NCBI GenBank assembly: GCA_943331105.2
Contig: CALQKH020000003.1
Location: 248,001 to 312,000, forward strand
Origin: Akkermansia muciniphila
Lineage (GTDB): Bacteria; Pseudomonadota; Gammaproteobacteria; Burkholderiales; Burkholderiaceae_C
Reading direction: 5' to 3'
DNA length: 64,000 bases
The notes under the pieces are model-generated. The model was given only the letters and a program-made list of their open reading frames with translations, was not told where the DNA came from and ran no database searches. Below are positions 5,129 through 60,438 of this stretch, piece by piece. The translations under genes and the position numbers were made by a program. Position 1 is the stretch's first letter. Each line of letters opens with the position of its first letter.

Positions 5129-5752
5129 ATGTCAACGACAAGCCAAGCTGATCCTTTGCCCCCGCTGCTTTGCAGCCACAACTTGAGCGGTGGCCCCTCG
5201 GGTGAAACCGTCATTCATGACCTGACTTTCGCATGGTGGCCTGGTTTGCATTGGGTATGCGGTGACGAGGGCAGCGGCAAAACCAGCCTTTTGCGTTTGC
5301 TGGCGGGCGACTTGCCTGCGCTCCAAGGGACTGTAGACAGGCCATCGGATGGGGTATTTTGGGCTGATTTGAAAGGCAGCGAGCACGACCAAACCACCGT
5401 GCAGGCTTGCTGGGGCGCCTTACAAGCGATCTATCCCAAATGGCAGCACACGCTTGAAAAAGACCTGATCGAAGCCCTCGACATGGAGCGGCACCGGCAC
5501 AAGCCCTTGTTCATGCTGTCCACAGGCAGCCGTCGCAAAGTCATGCTGGTGGCCGCCTTGGCCTCTGGTGCGAGCGTGACCTTGCTGGACCAACCCTTTG
5601 TGTCTTTGGACCAAGTCTCTGTTCGGGTGATCAAAGACTTTTTGTCTGAAGCCGCTGAACACCCCAGCCGCGCTTGGATCGTGGCCGATTACGAAGTGCC
5701 ACAAGACTTGTCGCCCATCAGCGTGCTGGATTTGAGCCGACAAAAGCCCTGA
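5129..5752 (+). CDS. ABC-type ATPase subunit with altered Walker B (LLDQP)
   Basis: A 207-residue nucleotide-binding protein without membrane segments. It shows Walker A GDEGSGKTS (about residue 45), a signature-like LSTGSRRKVML, Walker B VTLLDQPFVSLD, and a D-loop-like SLD. Size and the LSTGSRRKV signature recall the compact CcmA/YadG type of ATP-binding subunit. The glutamate that normally follows the Walker B aspartate is glutamine here, a change that usually blocks or slows hydrolysis. No permease gene is next to it, so the transporter, if any, is unknown. It is transcribed away from nudB and converges on katG. Whether it powers the nearby secretion genes cannot be told from sequence. Confidence 0.75.
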   Translation: MSTTSQADPLPPLLCSHNLSGGPSGETVIHDLTFAWWPGLHWVCGDEGSGKTSLLRLLAGDLPALQGTVDRPSDGVFWADLKGSEHDQTTVQACWGALQAIYPKWQHTLEKDLIEALDMERHRHKPLFMLSTGSRRKVMLVAALASGASVTLLDQPFVSLDQVSVRVIKDFLSEAAEHPSRAWIVADYEVPQDLSPISVLDLSRQKP

Positions 5753-8951: not shown

Positions 8952-11057
8952 TCAAAATCCACCTTCTCTGACCAGAACCGACATGACTTGTCTTAGATAA
9001 CGCGCCAACGGACTGGCCCAATCGGCATGAATCATCAACTTGCCGCGCCATGACAAGTCCTGCATGTCCTCTGGCATGTCTTGCAACTCCAGCGTGACGC
9101 GGTAGACAGCACGTTCGGGCACCAACACCCCATTTTTTTCGCGGGTGACCACGTGCCCGCCCAGTACACTGGCCAGCTCTCGCCGAGGCAAAGTTCGCGC
9201 AGCGTCTTGATCGATGGCCACCACCTTGAGGTGCAGCATCTTGCCCGTCACGCTGTCCACCCAAAAAGTAGCCCGCTGTCCCACTTGCACCCGGTCCGCG
9301 TCGTCTTCTTCCAACCAGGTTTCAACCCGCCAGCTTGTGCCTTGTTTGACCAACACCCCCAGCTGCTCTTTCTTGCTCACCCATTGGCCTGCAGCCAAGT
9401 CAGGGTCGCTCATGAAAAAGTGGCCCGCATAAGGCGCGCGCGGTTGAAACTGACTGCGCTCAGCCTGCGCGCCTTGCCACTCGGCTTGGGTGGTGGCCAG
9501 TGTCTGCTCGGTCACACGCCAGCGTTTGCGCATCTCTTCGTCAAAACCTGCAATGGCCGCTTGTTGCCGCTGCTGATCCAGGCGCACCGACAACACGTTT
9601 TCACGCCCCACCAAGTCCGGCACTTGCAAAGTGACCAAGGAGCTGCCTGCTGGGGCCAAGGCCCCATGAGCCCAATGCAAGGCTTCCACGCGCGCGCCCA
9701 CAGGCGCATGGATTGGCCAGGTATCCACCGGCCTGAGCACCGCACTGGCCGTGATGCGTCCAGGCCAGGGCAAGGCCAATAACAAGATCAGCAGCAACAA
9801 AGCCAAAACACTGTGACGGGTGCGCCGCTGCATGCGAATGCGTGGCCACAACTGTTGCCACACGCGCAGCTCCGAACGGATAGGCCAAAGGATGAACCAG
9901 GCAATCTCGACTGCAAACAACAGCAAGCCCAAGACTTTGAAAAAGAACACATACACCAGCACGGCAATGCCCAAAAACAGCACCAGCCGGTAAATCCAAG
10001 TCGCCCAAGCAAACGCGATCATGGTGCGTGCCGCCGATGGCGCAAAGTGTTCAGGGGGCGCATCGCCCAGGCCAAACAGCCACTCTCGCAATTTCCAGCG
10101 GGCCAGGGCAAAACTGCGGCCATGCAGATTGGGCATGTCCAGTGCGTCCATCACAATGAAGTAGCCGTCAAAACGCATGAACGGGCTGGCGTTGATGGCC
10201 AACGTGGCCACCCAACTGGTGGTTGACAACACAAACGCCGCCGATTGCAAGCCCCCCTCGGGCAACAGCGCCCAAGCCAGGGTGGCCCAGACCGCCACCA
10301 CCAACTCGGTGGCAATGCCGGCACTGGCCACACGCAGTCGGTCAAATCGGTTGGTCAAGCGCCAAGTCTCGTTGGTATCGGTGTAAGCCACAGGCCACAT
10401 CACCAAAAATGCCACGCCCATGGCCGGCACCCGACACCCATAGTGCTTGGCCGTGAAAGCATGGCCCAACTCATGCAAAAACTTCACGCAAAACAGCGCC
10501 ACCCCATAGGCCATCAAACCTTCCAGGTTGAAGGTATCGACCAACGAAGCCGTGAACACATCCCAGCGCCGCACCACCTGAGTAAGTCCGGCCAACAAAG
10601 CCACCACCGTCAACCATGCAAAGCTGGACGACCCAAACCAACGCGCCAGCGGCAACCAGTGCGACAACCAGGCATCGGGCTGGATGAGCGGCACCCTGAA
10701 AAACAAATAGTGATGCAACAACCACTTCAAGGGCGTGCCCTGCACACGGGCCAACTGCTCGGCCATTTTGCGCGGCCCATCGGGACCAACACTGCGCACC
10801 AAATGGTGCTGCACCAAAAACTGCACCACCTGCAATACATCGTCAGAGGTCAAGGCCAAAGTGGTTTTGGCCGAGACATCCGCCGCGATCTGGGTCGGAT
10901 CGTCCATGAACCAGCGTTGCATGATTTGCAAGGTCGGCCAATCGATCCGAAAGAACTGGTTGCGCACCGGGTCGTGCAGCGTCCAGCTCGGTTGGCCATC
11001 GGGCAAGCTGGGGCCCGGTATCAAGTCCAGTTCTTCGCGCAGACGCGGCAGGGCCAT
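8952..11057 (-). CDS. M50 site-2 protease fused to HlyD-like periplasmic adaptor
   Basis: A 701-residue inner-membrane protein with three parts. Residues 1-110 are soluble, with a winged-helix/PqqD-like look (FFRIDWPTLQIMQRW). Residues 140-430 hold several membrane segments and an M50 site: His195, Glu196 and His199 in FLHELGHAFTAKHYG, and the third metal ligand Asp297 in NASPFMRFDGYF. Residues 430-701 form a periplasmic adaptor: beta-barrel and lipoyl-like halves (HAPVGARVEALHWAHG), a helical stretch, then VETWLEEDDADRVQVGQRATFWV. The start lies three bases after the upstream adaptor stop. It is the last gene of the LEPR-XLL-type export operon; family context suggests it takes part in maturing or exporting the giant protein. 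Which bond it cuts is unknown. Confidence 0.85.
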   Translation of the reverse strand: MALPRLREELDLIPGPSLPDGQPSWTLHDPVRNQFFRIDWPTLQIMQRWFMDDPTQIAADVSAKTTLALTSDDVLQVVQFLVQHHLVRSVGPDGPRKMAEQLARVQGTPLKWLLHHYLFFRVPLIQPDAWLSHWLPLARWFGSSSFAWLTVVALLAGLTQVVRRWDVFTASLVDTFNLEGLMAYGVALFCVKFLHELGHAFTAKHYGCRVPAMGVAFLVMWPVAYTDTNETWRLTNRFDRLRVASAGIATELVVAVWATLAWALLPEGGLQSAAFVLSTTSWVATLAINASPFMRFDGYFIVMDALDMPNLHGRSFALARWKLREWLFGLGDAPPEHFAPSAARTMIAFAWATWIYRLVLFLGIAVLVYVFFFKVLGLLLFAVEIAWFILWPIRSELRVWQQLWPRIRMQRRTRHSVLALLLLILLLALPWPGRITASAVLRPVDTWPIHAPVGARVEALHWAHGALAPAGSSLVTLQVPDLVGRENVLSVRLDQQRQQAAIAGFDEEMRKRWRVTEQTLATTQAEWQGAQAERSQFQPRAPYAGHFFMSDPDLAAGQWVSKKEQLGVLVKQGTSWRVETWLEEDDADRVQVGQRATFWVDSVTGKMLHLKVVAIDQDAARTLPRRELASVLGGHVVTREKNGVLVPERAVYRVTLELQDMPEDMQDLSWRGKLMIHADWASPLARYLRQVMSVLVREGGF

Positions 11058-11060
11058 GGC

Positions 11061-12395
11061 TCAAAGCCCCAAGTAAGCGCGCACCGTGGCCCAAGGGCGC
11101 CGGAACATCCAATACGCCAGCGGCACCCACCCCCCCTGAAGCTTGGCCGTGCCCTTCAGACCCACGCGGTGTGCGGTCTTGCCCGACAGCGCCGCACGCA
11201 CGCGGTAGGCATACGCCCCATCGGGGCGCTGCACCGCTTCGTGCGCCATGTAGCGCAAGGTCGCTGTCACTGGCGACAGAGGGCTGGCACTCAGGTACAA
11301 GCTCACCTCATCGCCCACCTCCAGACGCACCGCATCGGCCATCGGGACCCAAGCCTCCACCTCCACATCGTCCAAAATGGCGATCCGCAAAATGCGCTCT
11401 CCCGTGGCCACGGGTTTACCGATCCACTCCGACGGATCGTCCATCAACACCACCCCTGCTTGCGGCGCCAACACACGGGCGCGCGTCAGCTGCTCTTGCA
11501 GATAGTCAATCTCGGCCCGGCGCTCCTCAATCTTGCCCAGCAGCAAACCCAACTGGGGTTTGGCGCGCGCATCGCTCAGCGCCATCTGGCTGGTCTGGCG
11601 GTAATCGGTCTGGGCTGTGGCCAACGCTTGCACCGCCACATCCCGCCGCGACTGGATGACCATTTCGTCAAAGCTGAACAGCGGTTGTTGGGCTTGAACC
11701 GGCTGATTGGGCTGGATGTGAAACACATCAATCACCCCGTCCAGTGGCGCGCGAATGACCAAGGGACTGGAGGGCACCAACTCACCCGGCGCCAACACCG
11801 TCAAACGCACAGGCCAGCCCATCACGGCCAACAACAGCAACACCACCAGCAAACGCCGCTGCCGCCACCAAGGGCGGTCCGCCTGCCAAGCCAAAGCTTT
11901 GGACAAGCGACCCCGCCAACCCCGCAAACGGGCCATGCGCGGCCGGTGCATCGCCGCAAAGGCGTGCCACCAAACCTCAGACCATTCGTGCATGGCCTCT
12001 GTGGCCACTTGCGACCAAGACTCGTCGGACACAAAAACCGCACCACCCGTCACACCCGGTGCGCTCGAAGCCAGCCACAGCCCGTTTTCTGGCCACCACT
12101 GCGCCCACTGATCGGCCAACTCTGGGGGCAAATCCAGTGCACTGAACAATCGCGGGCCATCGCTGCCCATGGTCTGCAGATGGCGGGCCACCGCGTCCAA
12201 CCACTGCGCATAGGGCACATTGGCATCCACCTGCACCACGCCCGACAGACTCCACACGCCCTCATCGGCCAACCAAAGCGCCGCCTGGCGGTAGTGCGCC
12301 AGATCGAGCGTGTCGTTGACCAACAAAAACCCGAGTTCGCGGTCAGACCCGGCCTGCCGTGATCGGCGAGCCAGCTCAGACAAAGCGCCCATCAT
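11061..12395 (-). CDS. Membrane-anchored HlyD-like adaptor with N-terminal soluble (GAF-like) domain
   Basis: A 444-residue protein. Residues 20-155 look like a GAF-type cytoplasmic domain (LGFLLVNDTLDLAHYRQAALW, residues about 21-41, with a second half around GLWLASSAPG). One membrane segment lies at about 181-197 (LLVVLLLLAVMGWPVRL). The rest is a membrane-fusion adaptor: lipoyl-like RAPLDGVIDVFHIQPNQPV, a coiled coil around LLGKIEERRAEIDYLQEQL, the returning ARVLAPQAGVVLMDD strand, and a beta-barrel. Its ATG overlaps the stop of the giant-protein gene as ATGA (12395-12392) and it is followed after three bases by the M50 fusion. The likely job is to link an inner-membrane complex to the outer-membrane factor. 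The GAF assignment is tentative. Confidence 0.82.
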   Translation of the reverse strand: MMGALSELARRSRQAGSDRELGFLLVNDTLDLAHYRQAALWLADEGVWSLSGVVQVDANVPYAQWLDAVARHLQTMGSDGPRLFSALDLPPELADQWAQWWPENGLWLASSAPGVTGGAVFVSDESWSQVATEAMHEWSEVWWHAFAAMHRPRMARLRGWRGRLSKALAWQADRPWWRQRRLLVVLLLLAVMGWPVRLTVLAPGELVPSSPLVIRAPLDGVIDVFHIQPNQPVQAQQPLFSFDEMVIQSRRDVAVQALATAQTDYRQTSQMALSDARAKPQLGLLLGKIEERRAEIDYLQEQLTRARVLAPQAGVVLMDDPSEWIGKPVATGERILRIAILDDVEVEAWVPMADAVRLEVGDEVSLYLSASPLSPVTATLRYMAHEAVQRPDGAYAYRVRAALSGKTAHRVGLKGTAKLQGGWVPLAYWMFRRPWATVRAYLGL

Positions 12396-15300
12396 CCGGC
12401 GCGCACCCGCACGGGCGCAGACTCACGCACAGCTGCAGCCTCACGGGCTGGAGCAGCCTCACGCACAGGCGCCTTGTGCGCCCCATCGGCCACACGCACC
12501 AAAGTGATCTGACGCTTGCCCGCCATCTTCAGCTTCTCGGAGAAACTGTCGCGGCTTTGCGCTTGCGGCGCCGTTTGCTCACCAATGAACATCTGGAACA
12601 TCGCCACCGCTTCGCGGCCATCGTCGTCACGCGCCAAAACCTTCAAATCCAGCTTGCCCTTAAAGCCCGCAGGTGGCGTGACGATGAAGACACCGGTGGC
12701 CGGTTCAAACTGCACCCAACTGGGCAAATTGCTGTCGTCCGATTGCTTGGCTTGGAGCCTGATCACGGCATCCTTGCTCGAATGGATGAATGCGTCAAAA
12801 GGCAGGCTGATCCGGGTCGTGACGTTGGTGGACTGAATGAACTGATCCGTCACGCCCTGGAAAAGATTCAACCCCACTGGCGCTGTCTCGCTCACAGGAA
12901 TCTGGTAACCAGAGCCACTGGTCACCGCATCGGGCATGGACATGGGAGGATCGGCACGACCCAAAGTCTGAGCCAAAGGCGTCAGCGCCGAAGCGAAAGA
13001 CTGCGCAGGCACGACCACCGGGAGTGGCGCGACCAGCGCAGCAGGCGGTGCTGCGGGCACAGAGGGTGCCGGTGGCGTGGGTGGCAAGGCAGCGGGCTTG
13101 AGGCCGTCATCGTCACCTGGCCCAGAAGGGTTGGCCCCCAAAAGGTCATAGATGCGGCCATTGCCATCATCCAAGATGGTACTGGTGTCGCTGCCGCTCT
13201 TGCCACCGGTGACCGTCGCCGTCAAGCGGAAGTCCTCTGGCCCTTCAAAGTTGCTATCAGACACGGTAGGCACCCTGACAAAGAAGGACGTGATACCCGC
13301 GGGCAACATGATCTTGCCGTTGACCACGGGCAGATCAACCACTGAACCATTGTTCAGGTAATAGGCCGTGATGGCTGTGCTGTAGTCATTGTCTGTGGCG
13401 CGCTCATTGCTCAACACCAGACTGATCTCGGTGGGGCCGTTTTTGGCCGCTTCCAGTTCGATTTTGAATACCGCGTTGGAGCCCTCGCTCACATCATCGA
13501 GGCCGGAAACAGTGATGGCACGGTCGTCGTCAAACCCCGCACCTGGGCCGGTGCCCTCGTTGGCATCGGTGATGTCACCATCGCCGTTGCGGTCCATGCG
13601 GCCCGTGCCGTCATCGGTGATCGTGTCGGCCGCTGTGCTTGTGGTGGCACTGTTGGTGGCGTAGCTCGCTGTGAGCGTGAAGGTCTCTGCTCCTTCAAAC
13701 GGGCTGTCTTGCTCGCTGGCGATGTTCACCCGCACCAAGATCGTCCCTGAAACCGGTACCGTCGGGCGGTCACCACCCGAGCCATTCCAGCTGTAGGTCG
13801 TCCAGCTCGTTCCACCATTGGTGGAGTACTCAAAACTGAACCCGCTGATCGTGGCGTTGGCCGTGCTCGCATCGCTGTCATTGCCCAGCGCCAAATTCAC
13901 AGCGTACCCGACCACACCCGTCACCGTGAACGTTGCATACGGTGAGGCTTCGTTGAACACCACCCCACCGACCACACTCAGCGTGCGGTCGTCGTCATAA
14001 GCACCACTTGTCGCATCGCCAGGAATCAGCAACGAACCATCGTCGTAGATCGTCCCTGAGGCTATCGAGGTGGTCACCGTCAACGCCACGCTCGTGTTGG
14101 TGGTTGCAGCCGTGATGGTTGCCACCACCGTCTCCGCGCCCTCAAAAACCGTGTCTCCAACCGGGTCCACCGTGAAAAAGCTGGATATTTGACCGGCAGC
14201 AATGCTCAACACGAAATCGCCAGAGCCATTAGGGCTGATCAGCGCTCCTGCAGCATCCTTCAACAAGTAATCACTTGGGTTTGCGGCTCCGCTCAAACGG
14301 ATCGTGACCGAGGAAGCTGTTGGCAATGCATCACCGATCAGGTTGACCCTGAAGATCATGGCCGTTGTTTCGCTGCCATCGCCCTCGGATATGCCCGCAG
14401 GACTGACTTCAATCGCCACTGTGGGCAGCAAAGTGACGCCCGTGATGGTGAAAGTGAGGTCACTGGTGCTGGTACCACCGTTGCCATCGCTGATGGTGTA
14501 CGACACCGTTTGTGTGGCCGACTCTCCTTGGTTGAGGTAATCAAAAGCCCCGTTGGCATTGAAAGTGAAAGCACCCGCGGCGTTGATTGAGACCGTGGCA
14601 CCTGAAGCCAGCGTCAACAGCGTATTGCCAGTTGCAGCAACGCCTTGGCCGCCAATGCCGATGACTGTGAGCGCATGGCCGTCTGGGTCTGTATCGGCAT
14701 CCGGATTAGTGATTGAATTGCCTGCGATAGGGGTCGATTCATTGGCCGTGTAGGCATTGGGGCGAGCCACGGGCGCATTGTTCGCTACAGTGGCGGGTAC
14801 CCTGATGTCGTCGTTGCTGCTGTCACTGCCGTCATTCGGGTCGGTGTAGGACGCCAGCAAAACCGCGCCAGCTGCCAGACTGTTGAATGGCGAGGGCAAT
14901 GCCGCTTGAAAGACACCCGTGTTGGCACCCGTTTGCGTCAACGTCACGGTGGCACCGTTGACAGTGGCCGTCACGGTTTTGCCTGCAACAGAACTGGCTT
15001 CGTCCAGGTCGGTCACCCGCAGGTGAGCAGGGGCACCGGCGCTGTAGTTGGCCCCAGCATCCGCGCCAGCAGACGTGATGAACTGGGTGATGGAGGGCGT
15101 ACCCAAGTCCCGTGCCGTCACGATGAAACTGCCAGTGGCCACATCGCTGATGGTGTTTTCGTAGCCTTCGGCCGCTGTGGCCGTGATGGTGTACTCACCG
15201 ATCTGGTTCAGAGTCTGCCAAACATATTCGAAAATTTTGTAGGTATCGCCTGCAGCTGGACTCCCCACGACGCTCGCAGAAACAGGCGTCACCATGCCCA

Positions 15301-18300
15301 GGTCACCGGTCACACCCGGGCCATCGATCGACAATTTCAAGCTGGTGATGTCGTAGGCACCAAAAGGATCCATGACCTTGACGCGAAGGTAAACCGTGCC
15401 ACCGGCGTCTATGCTGCCAGTGCTAATCTGGTTGCCACCCACCGAGAAAGGTCGGTCAAAGAAACCGATTTCCTGCACACCCGCAACCACGCCATTATTT
15501 TCTGTGACGCCATCGTTATCGCTGTCTACGCCATCCACATCGACCACCTGGATGACATTGGTCACCGGCAAATCGATCCGAGAAGGGGTCGTGCTGCTGT
15601 CGTAGTCGATTTGGAAGCTGGAACTGGCCACATTGTTGGTGATGACCAATTTGACGCTGGCCCCCTTGGGAATCGTCAAACCAGAACTGAGTTCGCCACT
15701 CCACGTCAAGGTGCCAACGCCGGATGTGGAAGTGGTTTCGCTGTAGGTGGCAGAGCCCAAAGAGGCTATCGTTACCTCTGACCCACTGGCTGAATAAGTC
15801 AATGCCGCAGTGATGCCCGCATAGGTACCGCTGGTCAGACCCGTTTCGGCGCGCACGAAGGTGGTGACATTCACCAACCCGGACGCAGGAAGACCGATGG
15901 CAGTGGCCATCGGGATGGCTTGGGTGAAAGTGCCCGGTGCAGCAACACCGCCGGAGGCAGGCGAAATAGAAATGTTGTCAATATAGACATCATCAGAGTT
16001 GCGGGAAGATGCCAAAGTGAAGCGAATAAAACGTGTCCCAACAGGCAAGGTGCTCTGAGAAACGGCCACAACGCCGTTCTGGTTCCCAGAGATGGCTGAA
16101 TTACTGGGGTAGCTCGTGAAATCACTCTCAGTGCCGCCTGAGTTGCGAAAGCCCTTCACCGTACCCGCGAGCACCCAACTGCTGCCGTTGGCCGAATACT
16201 CCACCCGCAAGCCTGTATCTCCGCTGTCCAAGCCACGCAATTGGTAATCAAAATCAATGCTCGATGCTGCCGTCAAGGCTGCAAACTCGCGCGTCAGGGA
16301 TCTGGGGGAACCACTCGAGCCTCCGCCATTGAGCTGCAAAGCAAAATTACCTGTGGTGGTGATGTTGGGCAAGATCCGCACGTTATCTGACGTTGCATCT
16401 TGCGTGCTGTCTGACTCGATCCAACTGCCTATCCAACCTGTACCGCCATTCAGCGCAGCGGAAGAAAAACTTTCTTCGCTGGAAGACGTGCTGGCAGACA
16501 CAACAATGGCCGCAGTCCTGTCGGTATCTGTGTCCGAATGACTGGCATCACCTGGTGCATGCCGATCTAGATCGCCCGTACGATCACCACTGACCGCATC
16601 GGCTGACAAATACAAACTCTTGATGAAAGTGACCGTTGCGGTGTCGCGGTTTGGCAGGGTCCCCGGAGTGGTCGGGTTGTCGGTCGATGTACCGGTGACC
16701 GGGTCGGTGTAGTCGACCTGCAGAACATGGCCCAAAGCCGTTCTCAATTTACCTGAGTTGTTCGCTGCATCCGTGGCCAATGTGGTGGTGAGCAAGGTGC
16801 CTTGAAAAACACCGTTGACGCTGTCCGTTCTGGTCAGCGTGACTACTTCGCGCTCATTGGTGGTGGTGTTGATCACGGTCACCTGCAAGCTGGTGCGTGA
16901 AGCTTGATCGGCATCCGTGACCCGAATCCCCAGCGTGCTGCCCTCAGTGAAGTTCACACGTGTGCTGTCAAAGGTCGAATTGAAAAAATCCACCCTGCCA
17001 TCGGTTGGCGTTGGCGGCGGTGCTGCTACGCCAACCGCAGTTTTCAAATTGGTGTTGGTACCCGATGTGTAGGTGGTTGGCGTGATGCCCCAATTGATGG
17101 CGTTGTCAATGCCCAGTGCACTGCCCGTTTGACCTGAGGTCGGATCACTGTAGGTGACTTGAATGGTTTCACCACTCAACAGTTTCAATGTGCCGTTGTT
17201 ATTGGTGGTGTCCGTGCCGTTGGTGAGCAATGTGTTTTGAAAAATGCCCGTGTTGGCGCCTGTTTCAGTCAAGGTCACTGACTCAGTTTCACTTGAATTG
17301 GTTTTCGCCACCGTGACCGTCACTGTTTCAGCGGCAGCAGCGTTTTTGTTTTGATCGCCATCCACCACCCGCAAACCCAGGGTGTTGCCGCTCTCGAAAC
17401 TGGCCGCTGTGGCCGAAAAATCAGACCGCATGAAGAAAACTTCACCATCTGTCACATTGACGTTAAGTGGTATTACATTTTCCTTGGACTTGGAAACCCC
17501 TGTTCCCGTCATGTTCACGCTGTTGGTGATGGTGTAATCCGAGTCCGACAAAGCTTTGTTGATGGAGCTGCGCACGGTCACGCGGTAAGTGATTTCAACC
17601 GCAGCGCCCCGCTGAAGACCATCGTTCGTGCCGGCGGTGCGGGGATCAAAGTCACTGATGCTGTAACCCACGCTGGTGAACAACGATGGCGTGCCTGTCA
17701 GCGAGGTATTGGCCGTCGTGCCGTCAATACCCGTGCCATCGCCTGCATAAATGGTCTGCAAGCCCCCTTCAATCTTCCACGCCCTGGTGCCATCGGGCCT
17801 GAAAACGGTCAACACCATGCTGTCCTGAACATAGGTGGCACTGTCGGTCGGCGTGACCGCGTCTTTGAGGACCACATTGAACAAGTCAATCACGGCTCGG
17901 TTGGTCAAGCGCACGGTGTACTTGACCTCTTCACCCAACTCTACGGTGGTGTTGGTATCGGCAGGGTTGTTCTCAACCGACTCTTTGCTGAGCACGTAAT
18001 CAGGGAAGGGGGTCACCGTGGTGCCCATGTCCAAGTAGGGTGTACCCGGTCCAGCAATGGAGGGGTCTTCACCCCAAGCGGCTGTTAACAGCGTGCCGTC
18101 CAAGGTGTAAACAGTCAAGCCTGTTTGGTCTTTGTCTGAAGTGTCGAAAAGCCGGTAAGACTGTAATTTGTTAACCGCAAAACGGGTGCGCGCCGGGTCA
18201 TTCGCAGTTGCAGCAGTGACGGTGCCAGAGATCAAATTACCCGCACCATCTCTGAGCTGAACCGTCGTGCTGTCCACATAGATCCAAGCATTGTTAACAG

Positions 18301-20239
18301 GCGTCAACCAAACAGGGCTGGCGTTCAGGTCACCCGAAGCCAATGTGCGCGTGACGTTGTCTGCACCTGGGCCCCACGCCACCACAAATTTATCGGTGAG
18401 GTAGGACTCTGGCACCAAGGAATAAGACCAATCGTGCGTGGCATTGTCTATGGCGTCCGCATCGATCACACTGACGGCATAAAACCTTTTGAGGGCGCCA
18501 CCGGGAGAGACGGTATCGGTGGTGAAAAAACGCGCAGCAGACGCAGGCATCAAAAAGTAAGACGACTTGGTTGTGCTGTTCGACGCCCAAGTGGTGCCGC
18601 TGGAGCCTGTGGTCGCGATCGTGCCGCTGCCAAAGGCTGTCTCGTACTGAATGTTGGCGCCCTCGGGGTTGTAAATGACCACATAAGCTGGGTTGGCCGT
18701 GAGGGTGGTGCCCACAGGGGCGTAATAACTGCTGGCCCACTGCTCGTCAGCCGTCAGTGCAAACCATCGGTTTTCATAAGAAGAAGCCACATCGCCGGCG
18801 ATGAGGTAGACACCGACGCCTTTGTCTGCTGTGACTTTGGCGCCTGCATTCAAACCGCCATTGACAAAGTAGCTTTGGCCTTCATTGAGGATGACCGTGA
18901 TGTCGGTCGAGCCATTGCCGTCTTTGTCTATGTTGACGACGGTGTTGTCTTGGGTGGCCATGATGTGGGCCGAGGTGTATTCAAACAGCTTGTTGGTGCC
19001 CACGGCGACGGTTTCGATGTTTTGCCCCACTGGCAAGGTGTAGACCTTGCCGGCGTTGCCCGAATCGATGACGTTCACCGCACCCGCCAAAACAGTGCCC
19101 GGTGTGGACGACCATCCTGCGCGAGTCACAGAGATGGCTTTGGTCGATCCCACTTTGTCACGACCATCAAAATCCACCGTTGCAGGCGTTGTGGGATTGA
19201 CTGCGTTGCTCAAAATGATGCTCTGGCCAGTGACACGGATACCCGTTCCGCTGACAGCGGCCTCAGTGTTGTTTTGGATGCCATCGCGGCTGGTGTCCAC
19301 AAACCAACCATTGTTGTAAGTCCATACCCGGGTGGTCGCTTGGGTGGGGTTGCTGATGCTGGTTTCGTAACCATCCTCCCACTGGTCATACACCACCACG
19401 GTGCCGTTGCTGGTGGCCGTGATCGCAATGACCGTTTGAATATTGCCTGTGACCTGGGTGTTGATCGCCTTCAAGGCCGTTTGAATATTGGCTTCAGCCA
19501 AAGGCACATAGTGGGTTTGCGAAATCGCATACGGCACGGAGGCCTCGCCCCAAACAGTCTGCCCATTCACCTGAAGGGCCAAGCGGTCATCTTCGCTGCC
19601 AGCGGTCACGGCGTTGCCTGCCGGGTTCACCACCAGCGATGCAAACGCGTGGCCCTCGTCGCCTGTGCTGTCTTGCCCGGGGTTCAGCCAGGTGTCCATG
19701 GCGTGGCCCAATTCTTCGATCAACACCAAGCCAATGGTTTGGCTGTTGGCTTCTTTCGCCACCCAGTCGGCATTCAAATAAATCACTTGCTTGCCCGACA
19801 AGCCTTGGTCTGCAAATGCACCGGCAATGCCCTGCATTTGCGACGCACTGAGCAACTCCACCGGAAGGCTGATTTCACCGCTTTGAATGGCTACAACCAT
19901 GGCGTCATAAGCCGAAGACCACTGGTCACTGGGCACGGCATCTTGGCGACCACAGTCAAAAATAGCAAACAGTTGCTGCTTGGCCTCGGGTCGGGCTAAA
20001 AAGTCGACCACCATTTTTTGAGCGTCAGCTTGGGCTTGGGCCAAGGCAACCGGTGCGGCCGGTGCCAACAAGTCAAACAACTTGGCGGTCGCTGCATCGG
20101 ATTCGCGACTGGTTTCAATGACCGCATCCACCACCTGCAACGCATCCGCCACCGCCGCCCCGTCAAACATGAAGCGCTGCTCCAGCGCCATCAAGCCGCT
20201 GGCGCGGCGGGTCAGTCCAAGGTTCTTACTTTTTGACAT
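12392..20239 (-). CDS. Giant LEPR-XLL-like surface protein with Ig/Calx-beta-type repeats
   Basis: A 2615-residue protein, probably exported and cell-surface. The N-terminus has LEQRFMFDGAAV (19-30), a variant of the LEPR-x-(L/M)FDGA motif of large type I-like substrates; there is no Sec signal. Residues about 70-205 are a globular region with IEELGHAMDTWLN and GDEGHAF, resembling a dead zinc-protease domain. Then come a region like IgGFc-binding N-terminal domains (about 250-640), a DUF11-like repeat, Ig/cadherin-like repeats of the type VDFFNSTFDSTRVNFTEG, and Calx-beta-like repeats. The C-terminus has an LPSWVQFEP module and a basic Ala/Arg/Glu tail. No RTX nonapeptides are seen. AAGGAA (20246-20251) precedes the ATG, which lies one base after the upstream stop. 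Confidence 0.88.
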   Translation of the reverse strand: MSKSKNLGLTRRASGLMALEQRFMFDGAAVADALQVVDAVIETSRESDAATAKLFDLLAPAAPVALAQAQADAQKMVVDFLARPEAKQQLFAIFDCGRQDAVPSDQWSSAYDAMVVAIQSGEISLPVELLSASQMQGIAGAFADQGLSGKQVIYLNADWVAKEANSQTIGLVLIEELGHAMDTWLNPGQDSTGDEGHAFASLVVNPAGNAVTAGSEDDRLALQVNGQTVWGEASVPYAISQTHYVPLAEANIQTALKAINTQVTGNIQTVIAITATSNGTVVVYDQWEDGYETSISNPTQATTRVWTYNNGWFVDTSRDGIQNNTEAAVSGTGIRVTGQSIILSNAVNPTTPATVDFDGRDKVGSTKAISVTRAGWSSTPGTVLAGAVNVIDSGNAGKVYTLPVGQNIETVAVGTNKLFEYTSAHIMATQDNTVVNIDKDGNGSTDITVILNEGQSYFVNGGLNAGAKVTADKGVGVYLIAGDVASSYENRWFALTADEQWASSYYAPVGTTLTANPAYVVIYNPEGANIQYETAFGSGTIATTGSSGTTWASNSTTKSSYFLMPASAARFFTTDTVSPGGALKRFYAVSVIDADAIDNATHDWSYSLVPESYLTDKFVVAWGPGADNVTRTLASGDLNASPVWLTPVNNAWIYVDSTTVQLRDGAGNLISGTVTAATANDPARTRFAVNKLQSYRLFDTSDKDQTGLTVYTLDGTLLTAAWGEDPSIAGPGTPYLDMGTTVTPFPDYVLSKESVENNPADTNTTVELGEEVKYTVRLTNRAVIDLFNVVLKDAVTPTDSATYVQDSMVLTVFRPDGTRAWKIEGGLQTIYAGDGTGIDGTTANTSLTGTPSLFTSVGYSISDFDPRTAGTNDGLQRGAAVEITYRVTVRSSINKALSDSDYTITNSVNMTGTGVSKSKENVIPLNVNVTDGEVFFMRSDFSATAASFESGNTLGLRVVDGDQNKNAAAAETVTVTVAKTNSSETESVTLTETGANTGIFQNTLLTNGTDTTNNNGTLKLLSGETIQVTYSDPTSGQTGSALGIDNAINWGITPTTYTSGTNTNLKTAVGVAAPPPTPTDGRVDFFNSTFDSTRVNFTEGSTLGIRVTDADQASRTSLQVTVINTTTNEREVVTLTRTDSVNGVFQGTLLTTTLATDAANNSGKLRTALGHVLQVDYTDPVTGTSTDNPTTPGTLPNRDTATVTFIKSLYLSADAVSGDRTGDLDRHAPGDASHSDTDTDRTAAIVVSASTSSSEESFSSAALNGGTGWIGSWIESDSTQDATSDNVRILPNITTTGNFALQLNGGGSSGSPRSLTREFAALTAASSIDFDYQLRGLDSGDTGLRVEYSANGSSWVLAGTVKGFRNSGGTESDFTSYPSNSAISGNQNGVVAVSQSTLPVGTRFIRFTLASSRNSDDVYIDNISISPASGGVAAPGTFTQAIPMATAIGLPASGLVNVTTFVRAETGLTSGTYAGITAALTYSASGSEVTIASLGSATYSETTSTSGVGTLTWSGELSSGLTIPKGASVKLVITNNVASSSFQIDYDSSTTPSRIDLPVTNVIQVVDVDGVDSDNDGVTENNGVVAGVQEIGFFDRPFSVGGNQISTGSIDAGGTVYLRVKVMDPFGAYDITSLKLSIDGPGVTGDLGMVTPVSASVVGSPAAGDTYKIFEYVWQTLNQIGEYTITATAAEGYENTISDVATGSFIVTARDLGTPSITQFITSAGADAGANYSAGAPAHLRVTDLDEASSVAGKTVTATVNGATVTLTQTGANTGVFQAALPSPFNSLAAGAVLLASYTDPNDGSDSSNDDIRVPATVANNAPVARPNAYTANESTPIAGNSITNPDADTDPDGHALTVIGIGGQGVAATGNTLLTLASGATVSINAAGAFTFNANGAFDYLNQGESATQTVSYTISDGNGGTSTSDLTFTITGVTLLPTVAIEVSPAGISEGDGSETTAMIFRVNLIGDALPTASSVTIRLSGAANPSDYLLKDAAGALISPNGSGDFVLSIAAGQISSFFTVDPVGDTVFEGAETVVATITAATTNTSVALTVTTSIASGTIYDDGSLLIPGDATSGAYDDDRTLSVVGGVVFNEASPYATFTVTGVVGYAVNLALGNDSDASTANATISGFSFEYSTNGGTSWTTYSWNGSGGDRPTVPVSGTILVRVNIASEQDSPFEGAETFTLTASYATNSATTSTAADTITDDGTGRMDRNGDGDITDANEGTGPGAGFDDDRAITVSGLDDVSEGSNAVFKIELEAAKNGPTEISLVLSNERATDNDYSTAITAYYLNNGSVVDLPVVNGKIMLPAGITSFFVRVPTVSDSNFEGPEDFRLTATVTGGKSGSDTSTILDDGNGRIYDLLGANPSGPGDDDGLKPAALPPTPPAPSVPAAPPAALVAPLPVVVPAQSFASALTPLAQTLGRADPPMSMPDAVTSGSGYQIPVSETAPVGLNLFQGVTDQFIQSTNVTTRISLPFDAFIHSSKDAVIRLQAKQSDDSNLPSWVQFEPATGVFIVTPPAGFKGKLDLKVLARDDDGREAVAMFQMFIGEQTAPQAQSRDSFSEKLKMAGKRQITLVRVADGAHKAPVREAAPAREAAAVRESAPVRVRAG
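12581..12815 (-). other. C-terminal LPxW module of the LEPR-XLL-like protein
   Basis: About 78 residues with the order ISLPFDAF, then SNLPSWVQFEPATGVFIVTPP, then a closing strand VAMFQMFIG. It resembles the short cadherin/putative-Ig modules that carry Leu-Pro-x-Trp. Counterparts lie at the C-termini of the bactofilin-like protein and the FhaB-like protein in the other operon. A 62-residue basic tail follows. Confidence 0.65.
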
Positions 20240-20251
20240 ATCACTTTCCTT
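20237..20251 (-). promoter_or_regulatory. Ribosome site and start of the giant-protein gene inside the end of the adaptor gene
   Basis: AAGGAA (20246-20251) lies within the last codons of the upstream adaptor gene, six bases before the ATG at 20239. The adaptor stop (20243-20241) and this ATG are separated by one base, so translation is probably coupled. This fixes the start at 20239 rather than a longer reading to 20278. Confidence 0.75.
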
Positions 20252-21041
20252 CGGGCGGGTTGAGCAGCGCCTTGCCACTCATGCCGGCCATCAATTCGGG
20301 GTGGCGGCCACTGATGGTGGCGGCCACTTTCACCGTCTGGCTGACCGGGTCCACACGCGCTGCAATGCGCGTAAAACGGGCCGGATAGCTCTTGCGGGTT
20401 TCATCGATTTGCACTTGAAATGCTCTGCCCACCCGCAGCCACTGCAGCCAAACGGAGGGCACCAAAAATTCCAGCTCCAGCACGCTGTCGTCCAAGATGT
20501 CCAGCATGGCCTGGCCCGGCTGCACATATTGCTGCTCGCGCACCCTTTGTTCGGCCACACGGCCCGCAAACGGTGCGCTCACTTGGCACTTGTCCAGCAC
20601 CGCTTGGTGCGCACCCAGTTCGGCTTTGGCTTTGTTGGCCGCCGACTTGGACAGATCCAGCTCCAACTGGCCCACCACGTTGAGTTGCTCCAGCCGCAAG
20701 TTCGCTTGCAAGGTCTGCGCAGCCCCCTCCAGCTCCGCTTGGGCTTTGTCCAATTGGGCTTTTTGCAATGAGCAGTCAAACTCCACCAGCATCTGCCCAG
20801 CCTTGAACACGCCACCCTCGGAAACCCCAATGGCCGATACCTTGGCACCGATTTCGGCAGCGATGGTCGTGTAACGGCGCGGCATCAATTGCGCGCGGAT
20901 CTCCTGGCGAACCACGAGCGGGGCCGTCACCGGGGCCGCGGCCCGAGCCGCAAGCGCAGTGGCAGGCGCCGGGGGGGGCGCCACTTGGGCATGCGCCCAA
21001 GCCAAACTCAAGCCCAGCAGGCCCACTGCAGCTGAGCGCAT
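20241..21041 (-). CDS. Periplasmic HlyD/RND-type adaptor subunit
   Basis: A 266-residue membrane-fusion adaptor. MRSAAVGLLGLSLAWAHA is a cleavable signal peptide (cut after about residue 18). After it come the opening strand LVVRQEIRAQL, a lipoyl-like half VSAIGVSEGGVFKAGQMLVEFD, a coiled coil around LQKAQLDKAQAELEGAAQTL, the returning half CQVSAPFAGRVAEQRVREQQYV, and a beta-barrel to the end. It lacks a membrane anchor and is shorter than RND adaptors (about 380 residues). The ATG at 21041 shares one base with the stop of the outer-membrane factor gene (TGATG). Likely role: periplasmic bridge between the outer-membrane lipoprotein channel and the two membrane-anchored adaptors encoded downstream. 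Confidence 0.85.
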   Translation of the reverse strand: MRSAAVGLLGLSLAWAHAQVAPPPAPATALAARAAAPVTAPLVVRQEIRAQLMPRRYTTIAAEIGAKVSAIGVSEGGVFKAGQMLVEFDCSLQKAQLDKAQAELEGAAQTLQANLRLEQLNVVGQLELDLSKSAANKAKAELGAHQAVLDKCQVSAPFAGRVAEQRVREQQYVQPGQAMLDILDDSVLELEFLVPSVWLQWLRVGRAFQVQIDETRKSYPARFTRIAARVDPVSQTVKVAATISGRHPELMAGMSGKALLNPPEGK

Positions 21042-22585
21042 CACTTGCCCGCCTTGGTGCCTTGGGCGATTTGCTGCCATGGCGCCTTGGAACGCGTGAT
21101 CTGCTCGGTCAGCTCATTCAGGGGCAATTCATGCGTGCTGCCAATTTGGGGCTCCAGACCCAAGGTGGCCAGCATGCGGTTTTCTGCCACTTGCACCTGA
21201 GCCAATGCCTGGTAGCGGCGCAACAGGCTCAAGATGGACGCGGTCTCGGTGGTGACCACATCCAACTTGCTTTGGGCCTGCACCGACTGGCGTGTGCGCA
21301 TGATTTGGGCAATTTTGTTGTCGGTGTCATAGATGGCATCGGCCCGATCAAACTGGCTGCGCGCATTGATCACCTGCAAGCGCGACAAGTGCACCTGGGT
21401 CAACACGGCCGCCTGGGTGGCCACACGGCGTTGGTCGGCCAGGGCCACACCGGCTTCGGACAGCTTCATCTGCGTGCCGGCCGTCAACAGGTTCATCAAG
21501 TTGAAGGACAACTGCACACCGGCTTCGTTCCAGTTGTTGCTCATCAGGTAGCTGTCGGTGTTGTACTTGGCGCCGTAGTTGAAGCTCAAGTTGGGGAACA
21601 TGCGCAAGATGGTGCGGCGTGTTTCTTCTCGGGCAATGCGGCTGTTGTAGTGTTGCTCGCGCAAATCGGGGTTGTTGAGCAGGGCCACTTCTTCCAGCTT
21701 GTCCACCGCCACTTTGGTCACTTCGTCATCGATGTTTTTCAGGTCGGTGGTGGCAATCTGAATGCCCTGACCCGCAGGGGCATTGATGAGCGCGGCCAAG
21801 TCCACTTGCGCAGACGACAACTCTTGGTTGATGTTTTCCAGCAAGCGCAGGTTTTCCAGCAACTGGCGCTGGTAGCGTAGGGGCTCCAGCGGGTTGCGCA
21901 CGCGCTCACCCGAGGCTTTGCGCGAATCGGTCAGGGCTTCTTCGGCCAAGGCGATGGTTTTTTGCACATCGGCTTTGAGCAACTGGGCGCTGGCGGCACG
22001 CCAGTAGGCGGTGCGCACGTCTTGCATCAGCAAGTGCATGGCTTTACGGCGCTTTTCGCCGGCAATCAAAAACCGGTCGGCCTGCTGCTTGGCGCCGTAA
22101 TAACCCAGGCCCAGGTCCAACATGCTCCAGGTCAAACCCAGGTCATTGGTCGAAAAGCTGCGTGCCGAGGTGGTCGCCGGAGCACGTGAGCGGTCAGGTG
22201 TTTCTGATGGGAATGTGCTGCTGTAAGTGAAGCGGGCACTGTCACGCTCGGTGTAACCCGCCTGGGCCATGATTTTGGGCAGCATGTCGAACTTGCTGAC
22301 ATCCATCTGCCCCCGGGCCAAGGCCTCTTCCATCATGCGCGAGCGGCGGTCCAGGTTGTATTTCAGGGCACGCGCCAAAGCCTCTTCCAGGGTCAAAGGG
22401 CCATTCAACGGCGCCACATCTTTGCGAATGCTTTCCCCGTCTTTTTGGATTTGCGAGGCCATTTCTTGGGGTGCCACGGCCACAGGCTGCACGCTGGCAC
22501 AGCCCACTGCCGCCGCGCAGGCCAATGCAAGCAGGCTCAGGCGAAGTGGACGGTGGAATTGGGGGGTAAGGGTGGGCGTGTGCAT
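21041..22585 (-). CDS. TolC-type outer-membrane factor, lipoprotein
   Basis: A 514-residue outer-membrane efflux/secretion channel. The N-terminus has a lipoprotein signal with the cleavage site AAVGC, making Cys29 the lipidated residue. Two TolC repeats follow: LTLEEALARALKYNLDRRSRM with long helices and SMLDLGLGYYGAKQQADRF in the first half; EEVALLNNPDLREQHYNSRI and LSFNLMNLLTAGTQMKLSEAG in the second. The ATG at 22585 has an AGGAAA-type ribosome site (about 22594-22600). It is the first gene of the five-gene export operon, divergent from the sensor kinase. It should form the exit duct for the giant protein encoded two genes downstream. Confidence 0.92.
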   Translation of the reverse strand: MHTPTLTPQFHRPLRLSLLALACAAAVGCASVQPVAVAPQEMASQIQKDGESIRKDVAPLNGPLTLEEALARALKYNLDRRSRMMEEALARGQMDVSKFDMLPKIMAQAGYTERDSARFTYSSTFPSETPDRSRAPATTSARSFSTNDLGLTWSMLDLGLGYYGAKQQADRFLIAGEKRRKAMHLLMQDVRTAYWRAASAQLLKADVQKTIALAEEALTDSRKASGERVRNPLEPLRYQRQLLENLRLLENINQELSSAQVDLAALINAPAGQGIQIATTDLKNIDDEVTKVAVDKLEEVALLNNPDLREQHYNSRIAREETRRTILRMFPNLSFNYGAKYNTDSYLMSNNWNEAGVQLSFNLMNLLTAGTQMKLSEAGVALADQRRVATQAAVLTQVHLSRLQVINARSQFDRADAIYDTDNKIAQIMRTRQSVQAQSKLDVVTTETASILSLLRRYQALAQVQVAENRMLATLGLEPQIGSTHELPLNELTEQITRSKAPWQQIAQGTKAGK

Positions 22586-22750: not shown

Positions 22751-24709
22751 ATGGTTAACCCAACACCCCCAGCTGATCTCAAAAAAAATGCGTTCATTAA
22801 TTTTGTTTTTCGCTGGATATTGAGTTTTTTTTGCTTATTCATGCTGTCGGGCCATGTGCTGGCCAGAGACCACGTCAGTCAGCGGGCCTGGCTGGACGAT
22901 CCCAGCGCGCAGCTGAGCTGGGAAGAGGTACAAACGCTTCCACTTGAGCCTTTCAGCGGCATGCTCAGCCGAGGTTTTGGTCACTCGGCCATTTGGCTCA
23001 AGCTGCGCATTGACCCTTTCAAAACTTCGCCTTCTCAACAAGACCCCGATCGTCTGGTGATGCGCATCCGCCCGGTGTATTTGGATGACATACAGGTTTA
23101 TGACCCCCTGGCACCGAACGGTTTGGCGGGCCAAATCGGCGACTTGCAGCACCCAGGCCATCAAACTTTTCGGGGCTTGGACATGATGCTGCCCATTGCC
23201 CGTGGCGAGCAATCTCGTGACATTTGGTTGAGATTGGCCTCGACCAGCACACGGCAAATCGAAGTCGGTGTGTTCAACGTCGAGGACCTGTCGGGGCGCA
23301 TCCTGAAGCAATCGCTGGTCTTTGCGGGTTATTTGGGTTTGGTGGCCCTGCTGGCGGTCTGGGGGCTGGTCTATTGGGTTTTCGGTCGCGAGGCCTTGAT
23401 CGGTGCTTTTGGCCTCAAACAAGTGTTTGCTTTGCTCTTTGCCACCGCCTCACTGGGGCACCTGCGGGCCTTTTGGCCAGACCCATGGCCGGCTTCGCTG
23501 CTCAACCAGCTGACCAGCATTTTCAGCATCATGGCCGTGAGCACCGCCGTTTTTTTCCATGTGCTGCTGATCCGGGATTTCAAGCCACCTGTCTGGCTTA
23601 GGCGATTGCTCTGGGCATTGTTGGCCCTGCTCCCGGTCAAGCTGCTCATCTTGGCCCTGGGCTGGCCCACCTTGGCGCTGCAGATCAACATGCACGAAGT
23701 CTTGTTGACCCCCCTGTTTTTTTTGCTCTCCGTTTTGCTGTGCAAGGGCTGGGATCAAGCCACCCCCGAACACCCGGCGCTGTCCAAACCGGTGGTCGTT
23801 GGGTTTTACATCACCATGACCAGCTTTTTATTGGTCGCCGCTTTGCCCGCCCTGGGCTGGGTCTCGGGCACCGAAATCGGGCTTTACATTGTGCAGGCGC
23901 ACGGCTTGCTGACTGCCTTTTTGATCCTGCTGATGCTGCAGTACCGTGCCCATGTCATCAAACGCAATCAGAGCCAAACCGCCCTTGCATTTGAGCGTTC
24001 ATTGCTGCAATCGCAGCAAGACAGGCGAATGCTGGAGGAACAAGAAAAGTTGCTCACCATGCTGGCCCATGAGCTCAAAACTCCGCTGGCGACCATGACC
24101 ATGAGGCTGGATGCCAGTGCCAGCGGCAGCCCCCAAATCAGGCAAGCCATCCGTGAAATGAACAACGTGATCGAACGTTGTTTACAAATTACACAATTTG
24201 GCGACCGCAGGTTGGTGGCCCGAACTGCGCCTTTGGACTTGGTCAACACCTTGGACCAGGCCATCGCAGCCTGCACGCAAGCCCAACGCATCGAGCTGCA
24301 AGCCCATGGCCCCATCAAGGCAGATTCAGATTCCCAACTGGTTTTCATCATCCTGCACAACTTGATTGAAAACGCCTGCAAATACGGCGCCCCCAACGAA
24401 GCCATCAGGGTGACAGCGCATGTCCCGCCAACCGCCATACCGCCCATTGCGCTCATAGAAGTCATCAACCCGCCGGGCCCTTCGGGCTGGCCCGAAGCCG
24501 ACAAACTGTTTGAAAAGTATTACCGAAGCCCCCACGCGCGTCGTCAAGCCGGAACGGGACTCGGCTTGTTTTTGGAGCGCCAACTTGCCCAGGTCCTGGG
24601 TGGCCATGTCGACTACGAGCCCCAAGACGGGTGCATCCGTTTTGTTGTTCGCATCCCTTTAGAAGCAATCAACGCCACGCCCGTCAGTCCTGAATCCCAT
24701 TTGGGTTGA
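22751..24709 (+). CDS. Sensor histidine kinase with 7TMR-DISM input domain
   Basis: A 652-residue inner-membrane kinase. After an N-terminal hydrophobic signal (about 21-38) there is a periplasmic 7TMR-DISM extracellular domain (about 40-180, with GHSAIWLKLRI and DIWLRLAST), then seven membrane segments (about 188-397), a short coiled coil, and a HisKA domain with the phospho-acceptor His440 in LTMLAHELKTPLATM. The ATPase domain has the N-box HNLIENACKYG (Asn541) and the G-box AGTGLGLFLERQL. The extracellular domain family often binds carbohydrate-like ligands. The gene is followed by the response regulator and is divergent from the export operon. No ribosome site is seen before the ATG at 22751. 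Confidence 0.93.
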   Translation: MVNPTPPADLKKNAFINFVFRWILSFFCLFMLSGHVLARDHVSQRAWLDDPSAQLSWEEVQTLPLEPFSGMLSRGFGHSAIWLKLRIDPFKTSPSQQDPDRLVMRIRPVYLDDIQVYDPLAPNGLAGQIGDLQHPGHQTFRGLDMMLPIARGEQSRDIWLRLASTSTRQIEVGVFNVEDLSGRILKQSLVFAGYLGLVALLAVWGLVYWVFGREALIGAFGLKQVFALLFATASLGHLRAFWPDPWPASLLNQLTSIFSIMAVSTAVFFHVLLIRDFKPPVWLRRLLWALLALLPVKLLILALGWPTLALQINMHEVLLTPLFFLLSVLLCKGWDQATPEHPALSKPVVVGFYITMTSFLLVAALPALGWVSGTEIGLYIVQAHGLLTAFLILLMLQYRAHVIKRNQSQTALAFERSLLQSQQDRRMLEEQEKLLTMLAHELKTPLATMTMRLDASASGSPQIRQAIREMNNVIERCLQITQFGDRRLVARTAPLDLVNTLDQAIAACTQAQRIELQAHGPIKADSDSQLVFIILHNLIENACKYGAPNEAIRVTAHVPPTAIPPIALIEVINPPGPSGWPEADKLFEKYYRSPHARRQAGTGLGLFLERQLAQVLGGHVDYEPQDGCIRFVVRIPLEAINATPVSPESHLG

Positions 24710-24765
24710 TTTGTAAAACCGGACGTTTGAATTTTTATGATCTATCGGTTTTATCAATTTATCAA

Positions 24766-25476
24766 ATGCTCCACACCATGACGCCATCGCCTTTGCTTCA
24801 AATAATGGTGGTCGAAGACAACGACAGTTTGCGAGAGGCCACCGTTGACTTCTTGATTCAGCAAGGCCACCAGGTCACCGGGGTGGTTTGTGCAGAAGAT
24901 GTGGACGACACCCCTACACGCGACCTGCCTGATTTGTACCTGATTGACGTCAACCTGCCAGGCGAGGACGGTTTCAGCTTGTCCGCCCGCATTCGAAAAA
25001 GCCAACCTAGAACCGGCATCGTGATGCTGACCGCTCGCTCCCAGCTCAGTGACCGGTTAACTGGCTGGGATTGCGGTGCCGACAATTACCTGATCAAACC
25101 CGTCGAAAAATCTGAACTATTGGCTTGTTTGAATAACCTGGGGCGACGCCTGAAACAAGCTGCACCCGCACGCCAAACTGGCTTGGTACTTGACCGTCAA
25201 ACCCTCTCCCTGACGGGGCCGCAGGGACGGGTATCACTGACCTTTGCTGAAACCCAGCTCCTGGCAGCGCTGAGCAGGGCCGCTGGACAAAAACTGGAGC
25301 GCTGGCAAGCCATGCAACTGGTGGACAGCAAGGACAAAGGCCTGTTACCCGCCAATTTGGAAATGCGCATCAGCGCACTGCGCAAAAAACTCACCGCATG
25401 CGGTGCCCCTGCAAACGCGATCCAGACCTTGCGCTCGTTTGGGTACAGCCTCAGCTGCGAAATCCAGCTGACCTGA
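24766..25476 (+). CDS. OmpR/PhoB-family response regulator
   Basis: A 236-residue DNA-binding regulator. The receiver domain has the acidic pair in MVVEDND, phospho-acceptor Asp61 in DLYLIDVNLPGEDG, Thr89, and Lys111 in NYLIKPVEKSE. The C-terminal winged helix follows (TFAETQLLAALSRAAGQ, ISALRKKL, then IQTLRSFGYSLS). The ATG at 24766 is taken; an ATG at 24778 is equally possible and an upstream TTG near 24706 is unlikely. It is the partner of the histidine kinase just upstream, 56 bases away. Its probable targets, by position, are the divergent export operon and perhaps the two-partner secretion operon; this is inference. Confidence 0.93.
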   Translation: MLHTMTPSPLLQIMVVEDNDSLREATVDFLIQQGHQVTGVVCAEDVDDTPTRDLPDLYLIDVNLPGEDGFSLSARIRKSQPRTGIVMLTARSQLSDRLTGWDCGADNYLIKPVEKSELLACLNNLGRRLKQAAPARQTGLVLDRQTLSLTGPQGRVSLTFAETQLLAALSRAAGQKLERWQAMQLVDSKDKGLLPANLEMRISALRKKLTACGAPANAIQTLRSFGYSLSCEIQLT

Positions 25477-59991: not shown

Positions 59992-60001
59992 GCCTGCCCC
60001 C

Positions 60002-60421: not shown

Positions 60422-60438
60422 CTTGTTCTTTCAGAGGG

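Follow-up and report, generated by a model that had tools for sequence, protein, structure and literature searches.

A candidate type I-like export operon without an ABC exporter for a giant protein with an LEQR-type leader

The window analysed here, the whole 64,000-nucleotide stretch of contig CALQKH020000003.1 (assembly GCA_943331105.2), carries on its minus strand at 8952-22585 a five-gene operon that we propose to be a dedicated type I-like export route, lacking an ATP-binding cassette (ABC) exporter, for the giant protein that it encodes (probability about 0.6). The operon was confirmed from reading frames and translations and is transcribed in the order outer-membrane factor (OMF, 22585-21041), soluble adaptor (21041-20241), giant (20239-12392), membrane adaptor (12395-11061) and M50 protein (11057-8952). 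The successive junctions are a 1-base overlap, a 1-base gap, a 4-base overlap and a 3-base gap when an internal ATG is chosen as the start of P0004 and an ATG as that of P0003; the longest open reading frame (ORF) of P0004, from 21080, would give 279 amino acids and an upstream GTG at 20278 would give a P0003 of 2628. These coordinates and junctions bear out the initial annotation, which had described a tight minus-strand operon with overlaps of 1-4 bases and gaps of 1-3 bases, and its list of products (an OMF lipoprotein, a soluble adaptor, a 2615-residue giant with LEQRFMFDGAA, a membrane adaptor and an M50-adaptor fusion) agrees with translation and Pfam. HlyD_3 and HlyD_D23 were common to all three adaptors and, as that annotation had also claimed, no ABC exporter was found among the operon genes with Pfam or NCBIfam. 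The features are as follows.

21041..22585, minus strand: P0005, OMF of the TolC/OEP family and predicted lipoprotein, 514 amino acids (Pfam OEP, E 1.2e-32; lipobox-like LALACAAAVGC by eye)
20241..21041, minus strand: P0004, soluble periplasmic adaptor of the RND_mfp type, 266 amino acids, with a probable signal peptide judged by eye (TIGR01730, 123.6 bits, cut-off 94.9; HlyD_3, HlyD_D23)
12392..20239, minus strand: P0003, giant and presumed substrate, 2615 amino acids (translation; motif ALEQRFMFDGAA near the N-terminus; Big_9 and Cadherin_4 repeats by Pfam)
about 20130..20200, minus strand: leader region of P0003, TRRASGLMALEQRFMFDGAAVADA (translation and motif in relatives; A3 profile, 59.8 bits, E 8.5e-16)
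about 12392..12800, minus strand: conserved C-terminal part of P0003, an Ig/CADG-like domain and an SxSExLxxA-type motif (alignment of 93 C-termini)
11061..12395, minus strand: P0002, membrane adaptor, 444 amino acids, with a GAF fold (1-150), one transmembrane helix and an HlyD/MacA-like part
8952..11057, minus strand: P0001, 701 amino acids, with an RRE-like domain (2-89), an M50 site-2 protease (about 176-369) and an HlyD/MacA-like adaptor (430-685) (Pfam; predicted model and structural matches)

The M50 protein P0001 combines Peptidase_M50 (38 bits, cut-off 27.2) and HlyD_3 in one protein according to Pfam, and has the HExxH zinc site, the downstream Asp and the M50 fold of a site-2 protease; H195, E196, H199 and D297 were invariant in alignments of 33 and of 80 sequences. 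Structural matches of the predicted model gave its N-terminal domain the winged-helix fold, three strands and three helices, of RRE/PqqD domains, and we regard it as a putative leader-binding domain of this type, an assignment that for P0001 itself comes from the model. Structural matching likewise identified a GAF fold at the N-terminus of the P0002 model. The adaptors resembled MacA and MexA in a Foldseek search with predicted models, in which the 50 top rows per model were all adaptors; the other domains come from a second comparison limited to chains that Foldseek had ranked. PHROGs returned a single weak match, of unknown family, for P0002 and none for P0001 or P0003.

The presumed substrate P0003 has one cysteine and no strongly hydrophobic 19-residue window. 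A pattern search found no GGxGxD in it and the Pfam scan no HemolysinCabind, indicating that RTX repeats, typical of type I substrates though not universal among them, are absent from P0003. Behind its leader, at about residues 160-225, a stretch reading VLIEELGHAMDTWLN...GDEGHAF resembles a metalloprotease-type helix and contains no HExxH.

Close full-length relatives of P0001, of the window's own type, are here called class B and distant ones class A, a division made by identity and score that the fetched loci checked for part of the genomes. Among 250 genomes of the same family, for which up to four candidates per genome were scored and copies can be missed, 68 gave an M50 match at E 0.001; the 57 with E 1e-20 or better were counted and the 11 weaker ones left out. 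Class B was present in 28 of these 57 genomes, class A in 36 and both in 7. The loci fetched comprised 32 of class B, 17 of class A and 80 further named class B loci (at least 80 exist), and the sets of 32 and 80 share some of their sources (for example, L038/L129, L039/L160 and L042/L167). In a tree of 66 M50 proteins, from which a coverage filter removed 4 of the 17 class A proteins and which leaves out 60 of the 80 loci L123-L202, one branch with 100/100 support parts 13 class A from 53 class B proteins; partial or poorly aligned proteins were dropped from the sets A1, A2, A4 and A5. A class A M50 protein could be aligned with the profile of class B across 663 columns (E 8e-52), the M50 proteins of the two classes being homologous over their length.

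The neighbourhood of the M50 gene differs between the classes. In each of the 17 class A loci a SecA-like ORF adjoins this gene (truncated in one of them where the stretch ends), and the class A SecA scanned has SecA_DEAD, P-loop_SecA and SecA_PP_bind domains, whereas SecA was found beside the M50 gene in none of the 112 class B loci, so that these lack an adjoining secondary SecA_DEAD protein. The GAF adaptor gene was present in 32/32 and 77/80 class B loci (109/112) and a giant was recognized in 24/32 and 71/80; an OMF homologue was found in 25/32 and 12/80, many fetched stretches ending before it. All four export genes lay within the stretch in 25/32 and 11/80 loci, and the order in these 36 was OMF-adaptor-giant-GAF adaptor-M50 in 15, giant-OMF-adaptor-GAF adaptor-M50 in 12, and another order or no giant in 9. 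At L165 the giant is on the opposite strand, beyond the M50 gene. The arrangement of the operon exceeds chance, because M50 relatives of 32-93% identity retain the same partner genes. One M50 protein with 93% identity to that of the window is from Limnohabitans sp. 2KL-51, which makes Limnohabitans, or a bacterium close to it, the probable host. The module also occurs, with 66% and 60% identity, on metagenomic contigs labelled Akkermansia muciniphila (L127) and Chitinophaga pinensis (L160). L160 shares an identical M50 protein with G051, a genome belonging to the same family as the window, and both labelled contigs are probably misbinned.

Alignment of the giant with its relatives showed conserved ends and a middle that is not conserved. 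The C-termini (n=93) hold an Ig/CADG-like domain followed near the end by a short GRxGLSEQLRxA-type motif, and 35 class B giants have in common L-E-[QPAS]-R-x-[MV]-F-D-[GA]-A behind a basic stretch, a motif whose pattern itself fixes L, R, F and D and whose 35 rows include near-copies. LEPR-XLL proteins (NCBIfam NF012209, LEPR-8K), which are very long and repeat-rich, similarly begin with a short N-terminal region that contains a conserved LExR motif. Among 30 fetched NF012209 loci, 21 show the pattern used, mostly in an LEPRLLLSAD-like form, and the leader at L231 (genome G128) is intermediate, LEPRLLFDGAA. Judged by pattern and by this intermediate, the giant of the window appears to belong to a leader family related to LEPR-XLL; class A giants reach the NF012209 model, whereas LEQRFMFDGAA misses it. 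The longest LEPR-XLL open frame in the 250-genome set has 15,379 codons, and the longest found altogether, 19,427 codons, opens with an LEPR-type leader at G309:C115:112865-112924. At L147:1943-8700 (plus strand, Pseudomonas sp. P818) the giant occupies two consecutive frames, which may reflect a frameshift, a sequencing error or two proteins. Natural expression of such giants is hinted at by Lake Baikal transcripts, described in PMC9611531, that resemble an LEPR-XLL protein from Limnohabitans sp. TS-CS-82.

The leader family to which the giant's LEQR motif belongs follows the M50 gene from genome to genome. NF012209 matches occurred in 35 of the 250 same-family genomes and in none of 14 control genomes, and all 35 were among the 57 genomes with the module (Fisher p 5e-28, genomes taken as independent). 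Thirty-four of the 42 matches share a contig with an M50 gene, 34/34 in the same orientation as that gene and 31 no more than about 12 kb from it, distances being estimated from frame lengths; the remaining 8 are on contigs without an M50 gene. Similar results were obtained in a phylum-wide draw of 398 genomes, where up to two candidates per genome were scored and copies can be missed: 39 of the 40 NF012209 genomes were among the 89 with an M50 match above 150 bits, and outside the family 37 of 38 were among the M50-positive genomes (86/386). The class B leader profile A3, of which the window's own giant is one row, matched 25 of the 250 genomes, all class B; 13 of the 25 gave no row to A3, including G154, which is close to the row-giving G028. 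Leader type and module type change together: genomes with class A only matched NF012209 in 26/29 and A3 in 0/29, and those with class B only matched NF012209 in 4/21 and A3 in 19/21.

We propose that the giant, lacking a Sec-type signal peptide, would be made in the cytosol and that the M50-HlyD protein would bind its leader, MALEQRFMFDGAAV, through the RRE/PqqD-like domain, perhaps aided by the GAF domain of the membrane adaptor, and clip it at the intramembrane M50 site. Membrane parts of the M50 protein and the GAF adaptor may form or open the inner-membrane passage, and the HlyD parts of these two proteins would constitute, with the soluble adaptor and the lipoprotein OMF, the conduit to the surface; the membrane side on which each domain would lie is part of this model. 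Leader capture by the RRE, clipping by the M50 protein and a conduit of adaptors and OMF make the most economical account of the operon. The unfolded chain would be driven by a shared cellular motor, for which housekeeping SecA is the first guess because the sister class A has its own SecA paralogue; alternatively, proton-motive force together with folding outside could drive it, and an ABC protein is also possible.

The motor is the weakest point of the export model. The initial annotation had supposed that a site-2 protease and adaptors replace or complement an ABC protein, or use one encoded elsewhere. The relatives support this in part: with the six ABC_membrane proteins of the window's genome as blastp queries, an exporter-like ORF above 150 bits was found near only 2 of the 112 class B loci (L159 and L161), and the conserved linked exporter that would have refuted the initial reading was thus looked for and not found. 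We consider it unlikely that a conventional type I ABC exporter from elsewhere moves the giant, with the operon contributing adaptors, OMF and a processing protease. Candidates for that role do exist, since two of the six proteins, scoring 802 and 793 bits, are type I exporters of the LssB type, and at curated cut-offs class B genomes have LssB in 21/28 and PrtD in 10/28, and, among the four with neither, HlyB in G173 and G208, which brings those with an exporter to 26/28. G071 and G128, by contrast, lack LssB, PrtD and HlyB over these cut-offs, G128 being a single contig and 100% complete, and an ABC exporter is therefore not universal in class B carriers. Moreover, each LssB-type exporter of the window's genome belongs to a complete conventional type I locus and adjoins its own HlyD, OMF and large candidate substrate (L082 on contig C8, L083 on contig C6), one substrate having RTX repeats (cut by the contig end) and the other eight DUF7507 stretches, whereas the giant has no GGxGxD repeats. 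Another of the six ABC_membrane proteins, on contig C22, is a cyanophycin-associated ABC transporter.

Nearer the operon, the sole ABC transporter ATPase in the Pfam-scanned part of the window (all but the ORFs at 59260-63960 and P0008) is a lone 207-residue ORF at 5129-5752 on the opposite strand, which reached no NCBIfam family cut-off and was rejected as the motor. ABC cassettes formed the second-largest cluster of neighbours of class B loci (10 loci), none in a constant place. Dedicated SecA was also rejected: the window's genome encodes one SecA_DEAD protein, 20/28 class B genomes have one strong match only, and in the 8/28 with a second match above 200 bits, seven carry class A too, G116 being the eighth; the remaining second matches reach at most 24 bits, one counted as 25 with neighbours. 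Class A genomes have at least two SecA_DEAD matches in 34/36, the two exceptions being 76% and 79% complete; such counts may include weak helicase-like matches, and the 17/17 linkage of SecA to M50 in class A is the firmer evidence.

Alternatively, the giant might cross the inner membrane by some other cellular route and the M50, GAF and adaptor proteins might serve mainly to process it, to sense, or to retain it at the surface or release it, rather than to transport it. M50 proteases are known chiefly as processing and signalling enzymes, the GAF fold suggests sensing and a two-component pair adjoins the operon. But the giant has no Sec-type hydrophobic signal, the module always comes with adaptors, and with an OMF where the stretch is long enough, and sister class A has a SecA-type ATPase in place; we judge this explanation improbable. 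That the adaptors and OMF serve small-molecule efflux, with the giant a chance or regulatory neighbour, is very improbable: the soluble adaptor does exceed the RND_mfp cut-off and the adaptors are like MacA and MexA, yet the operon has no RND, MFS or ABC pump, in 27 of the 36 stretches with all four export genes the giant is placed among them or immediately ahead of them, and in two draws of genomes the leader goes with the module.

Several points weigh against the dedicated export route that we favour. Genome searches for SecA, ABC exporters and recurring neighbours identified no motor for class B, and conventional type I ABC exporters are encoded in 26 of the 28 class B genomes, among them the two LssB types of the window's own genome. 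No giant was recognized in 17 of the 112 class B loci; several of these are contig ends, but the stretches of L056, L057, L059, L062, L065 and L067 are not short, and A3 found no leader in G064 or G197. The giant misses the NF012209 model, the window's genome has no match to it at E 0.001, and Pfam found no PqqD domain in P0001. As to the association, the p-values assume independent genomes, A3 was partly built from the same loci (12 of its 25 matched genomes gave rows), and G457 (86% complete) is LEPR-positive with no M50 match. The whole case is computational: it shows a conserved gene content, a leader that goes with the module, invariant protease ligands and predicted folds.

For a type I-like locus that lacks an ABC transporter there is a precedent in print, one linked to SecA: Kamneva, Poudel and Ward (2015) described a locus in which M50, GAF-HlyD and HlyD proteins occur together with a secondary SecA_DEAD protein and from which an ABC transporter is missing, and they proposed SecA as the ATPase and the M50 protein as the pore (PMC4452313). 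The class A locus matches theirs. Like it, class B has M50-HlyD, GAF-HlyD and further HlyD proteins, with an OMF that is sometimes present in theirs, and no ABC transporter; the pairing of M50-HlyD with GAF-HlyD is supported in class B by homology, the GAF fold and 109/112 loci. Class B differs in having no adjoining SecA, a soluble adaptor and OMF of its own, and a giant with an LEQR-MFDGAA leader. The words LEPR, giant and PqqD are absent from that text. In open-licence PubMed Central, no paper was found on the SecA-less class, its link to LEPR-type giants or its RRE domain, none on a combination of M50 peptidase, HlyD and PqqD, and no description of an export route for LEPR-XLL-type proteins, which PMC10868602 and PMC9611531 mention in passing.

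With canonical type I systems (HlyB-HlyD-TolC and the LssB/LapB type) the operon shares HlyD-type adaptors, a TolC-type OMF and a large substrate that contains almost no cysteine and lacks a Sec signal, but it has three adaptors, no ABC exporter and no RTX repeats, and its signal is apparently N-terminal rather than C-terminal. Unlike the RRE/PqqD domains of pathways for ribosomally synthesized and post-translationally modified peptides (RiPPs), the RRE-like domain of P0001 is fused to a protease and an adaptor, and its putative client is a giant protein instead of a small peptide. P0001 also scores under the NCBIfam cut-offs for the RiPP intramembrane metalloproteases (daptide HExxH NF041824, 300 bits; YydH/LiaK NF058609, 225 bits) and differs from these and from RseP by its C-terminal adaptor part.

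Among the neighbours of the operon, no conserved sixth gene emerged, the largest neighbour family cluster covering 11 of the 112 class B loci. A divergent pair at 22751..25476 on the plus strand, a 7TMR-DISM histidine kinase (P0006) and a response regulator (P0007) by Pfam, is a possible regulator; it was rejected as a conserved one, with only scattered weak relatives beside the fetched loci. Next door lies a second giant, P0008, a 7184-residue ORF at 25524-51587 (minus strand) whose N-terminus is filamentous-haemagglutinin-like by eye and upstream of which Pfam identified a bactofilin, a SapC protein and a ShlB/FhaC-type POTRA transporter. Because it lies near this transporter, P0008 (itself outside the Pfam scan) was set aside as part of the operon's system, and its locus is apparently one of two-partner secretion. 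Although the two giants are unrelated, their C-termini seem similar when judged by eye, P0008 having LPDGSPLPTWLKLD (25524-25750) and P0003 SNLPSWVQFEPATG (12392-12800), both on the minus strand.

More broadly, we would give even odds to a distinct Pseudomonadota secretion system that needs no ABC exporter and no dedicated ATPase, in which the RRE-protease-adaptor fusion would read a short N-terminal LExR leader and a triple-adaptor conduit would pass giants, the SecA locus being its powered sister and LEPR-XLL giants the hitherto unrecognized substrates of the latter. LEPR-XLL-type proteins are among the longest open frames found (up to 15,379 and 19,427 codons), the five-gene arrangement recurs across many other bacteria, and the tie of the leader to one compact gene module makes the question of their export directly testable. 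If the proposed route is correct, secretion across two membranes can rest on a protease and adaptors without an ABC exporter, and the leader recognition of peptide natural products would have been reused for giant proteins.

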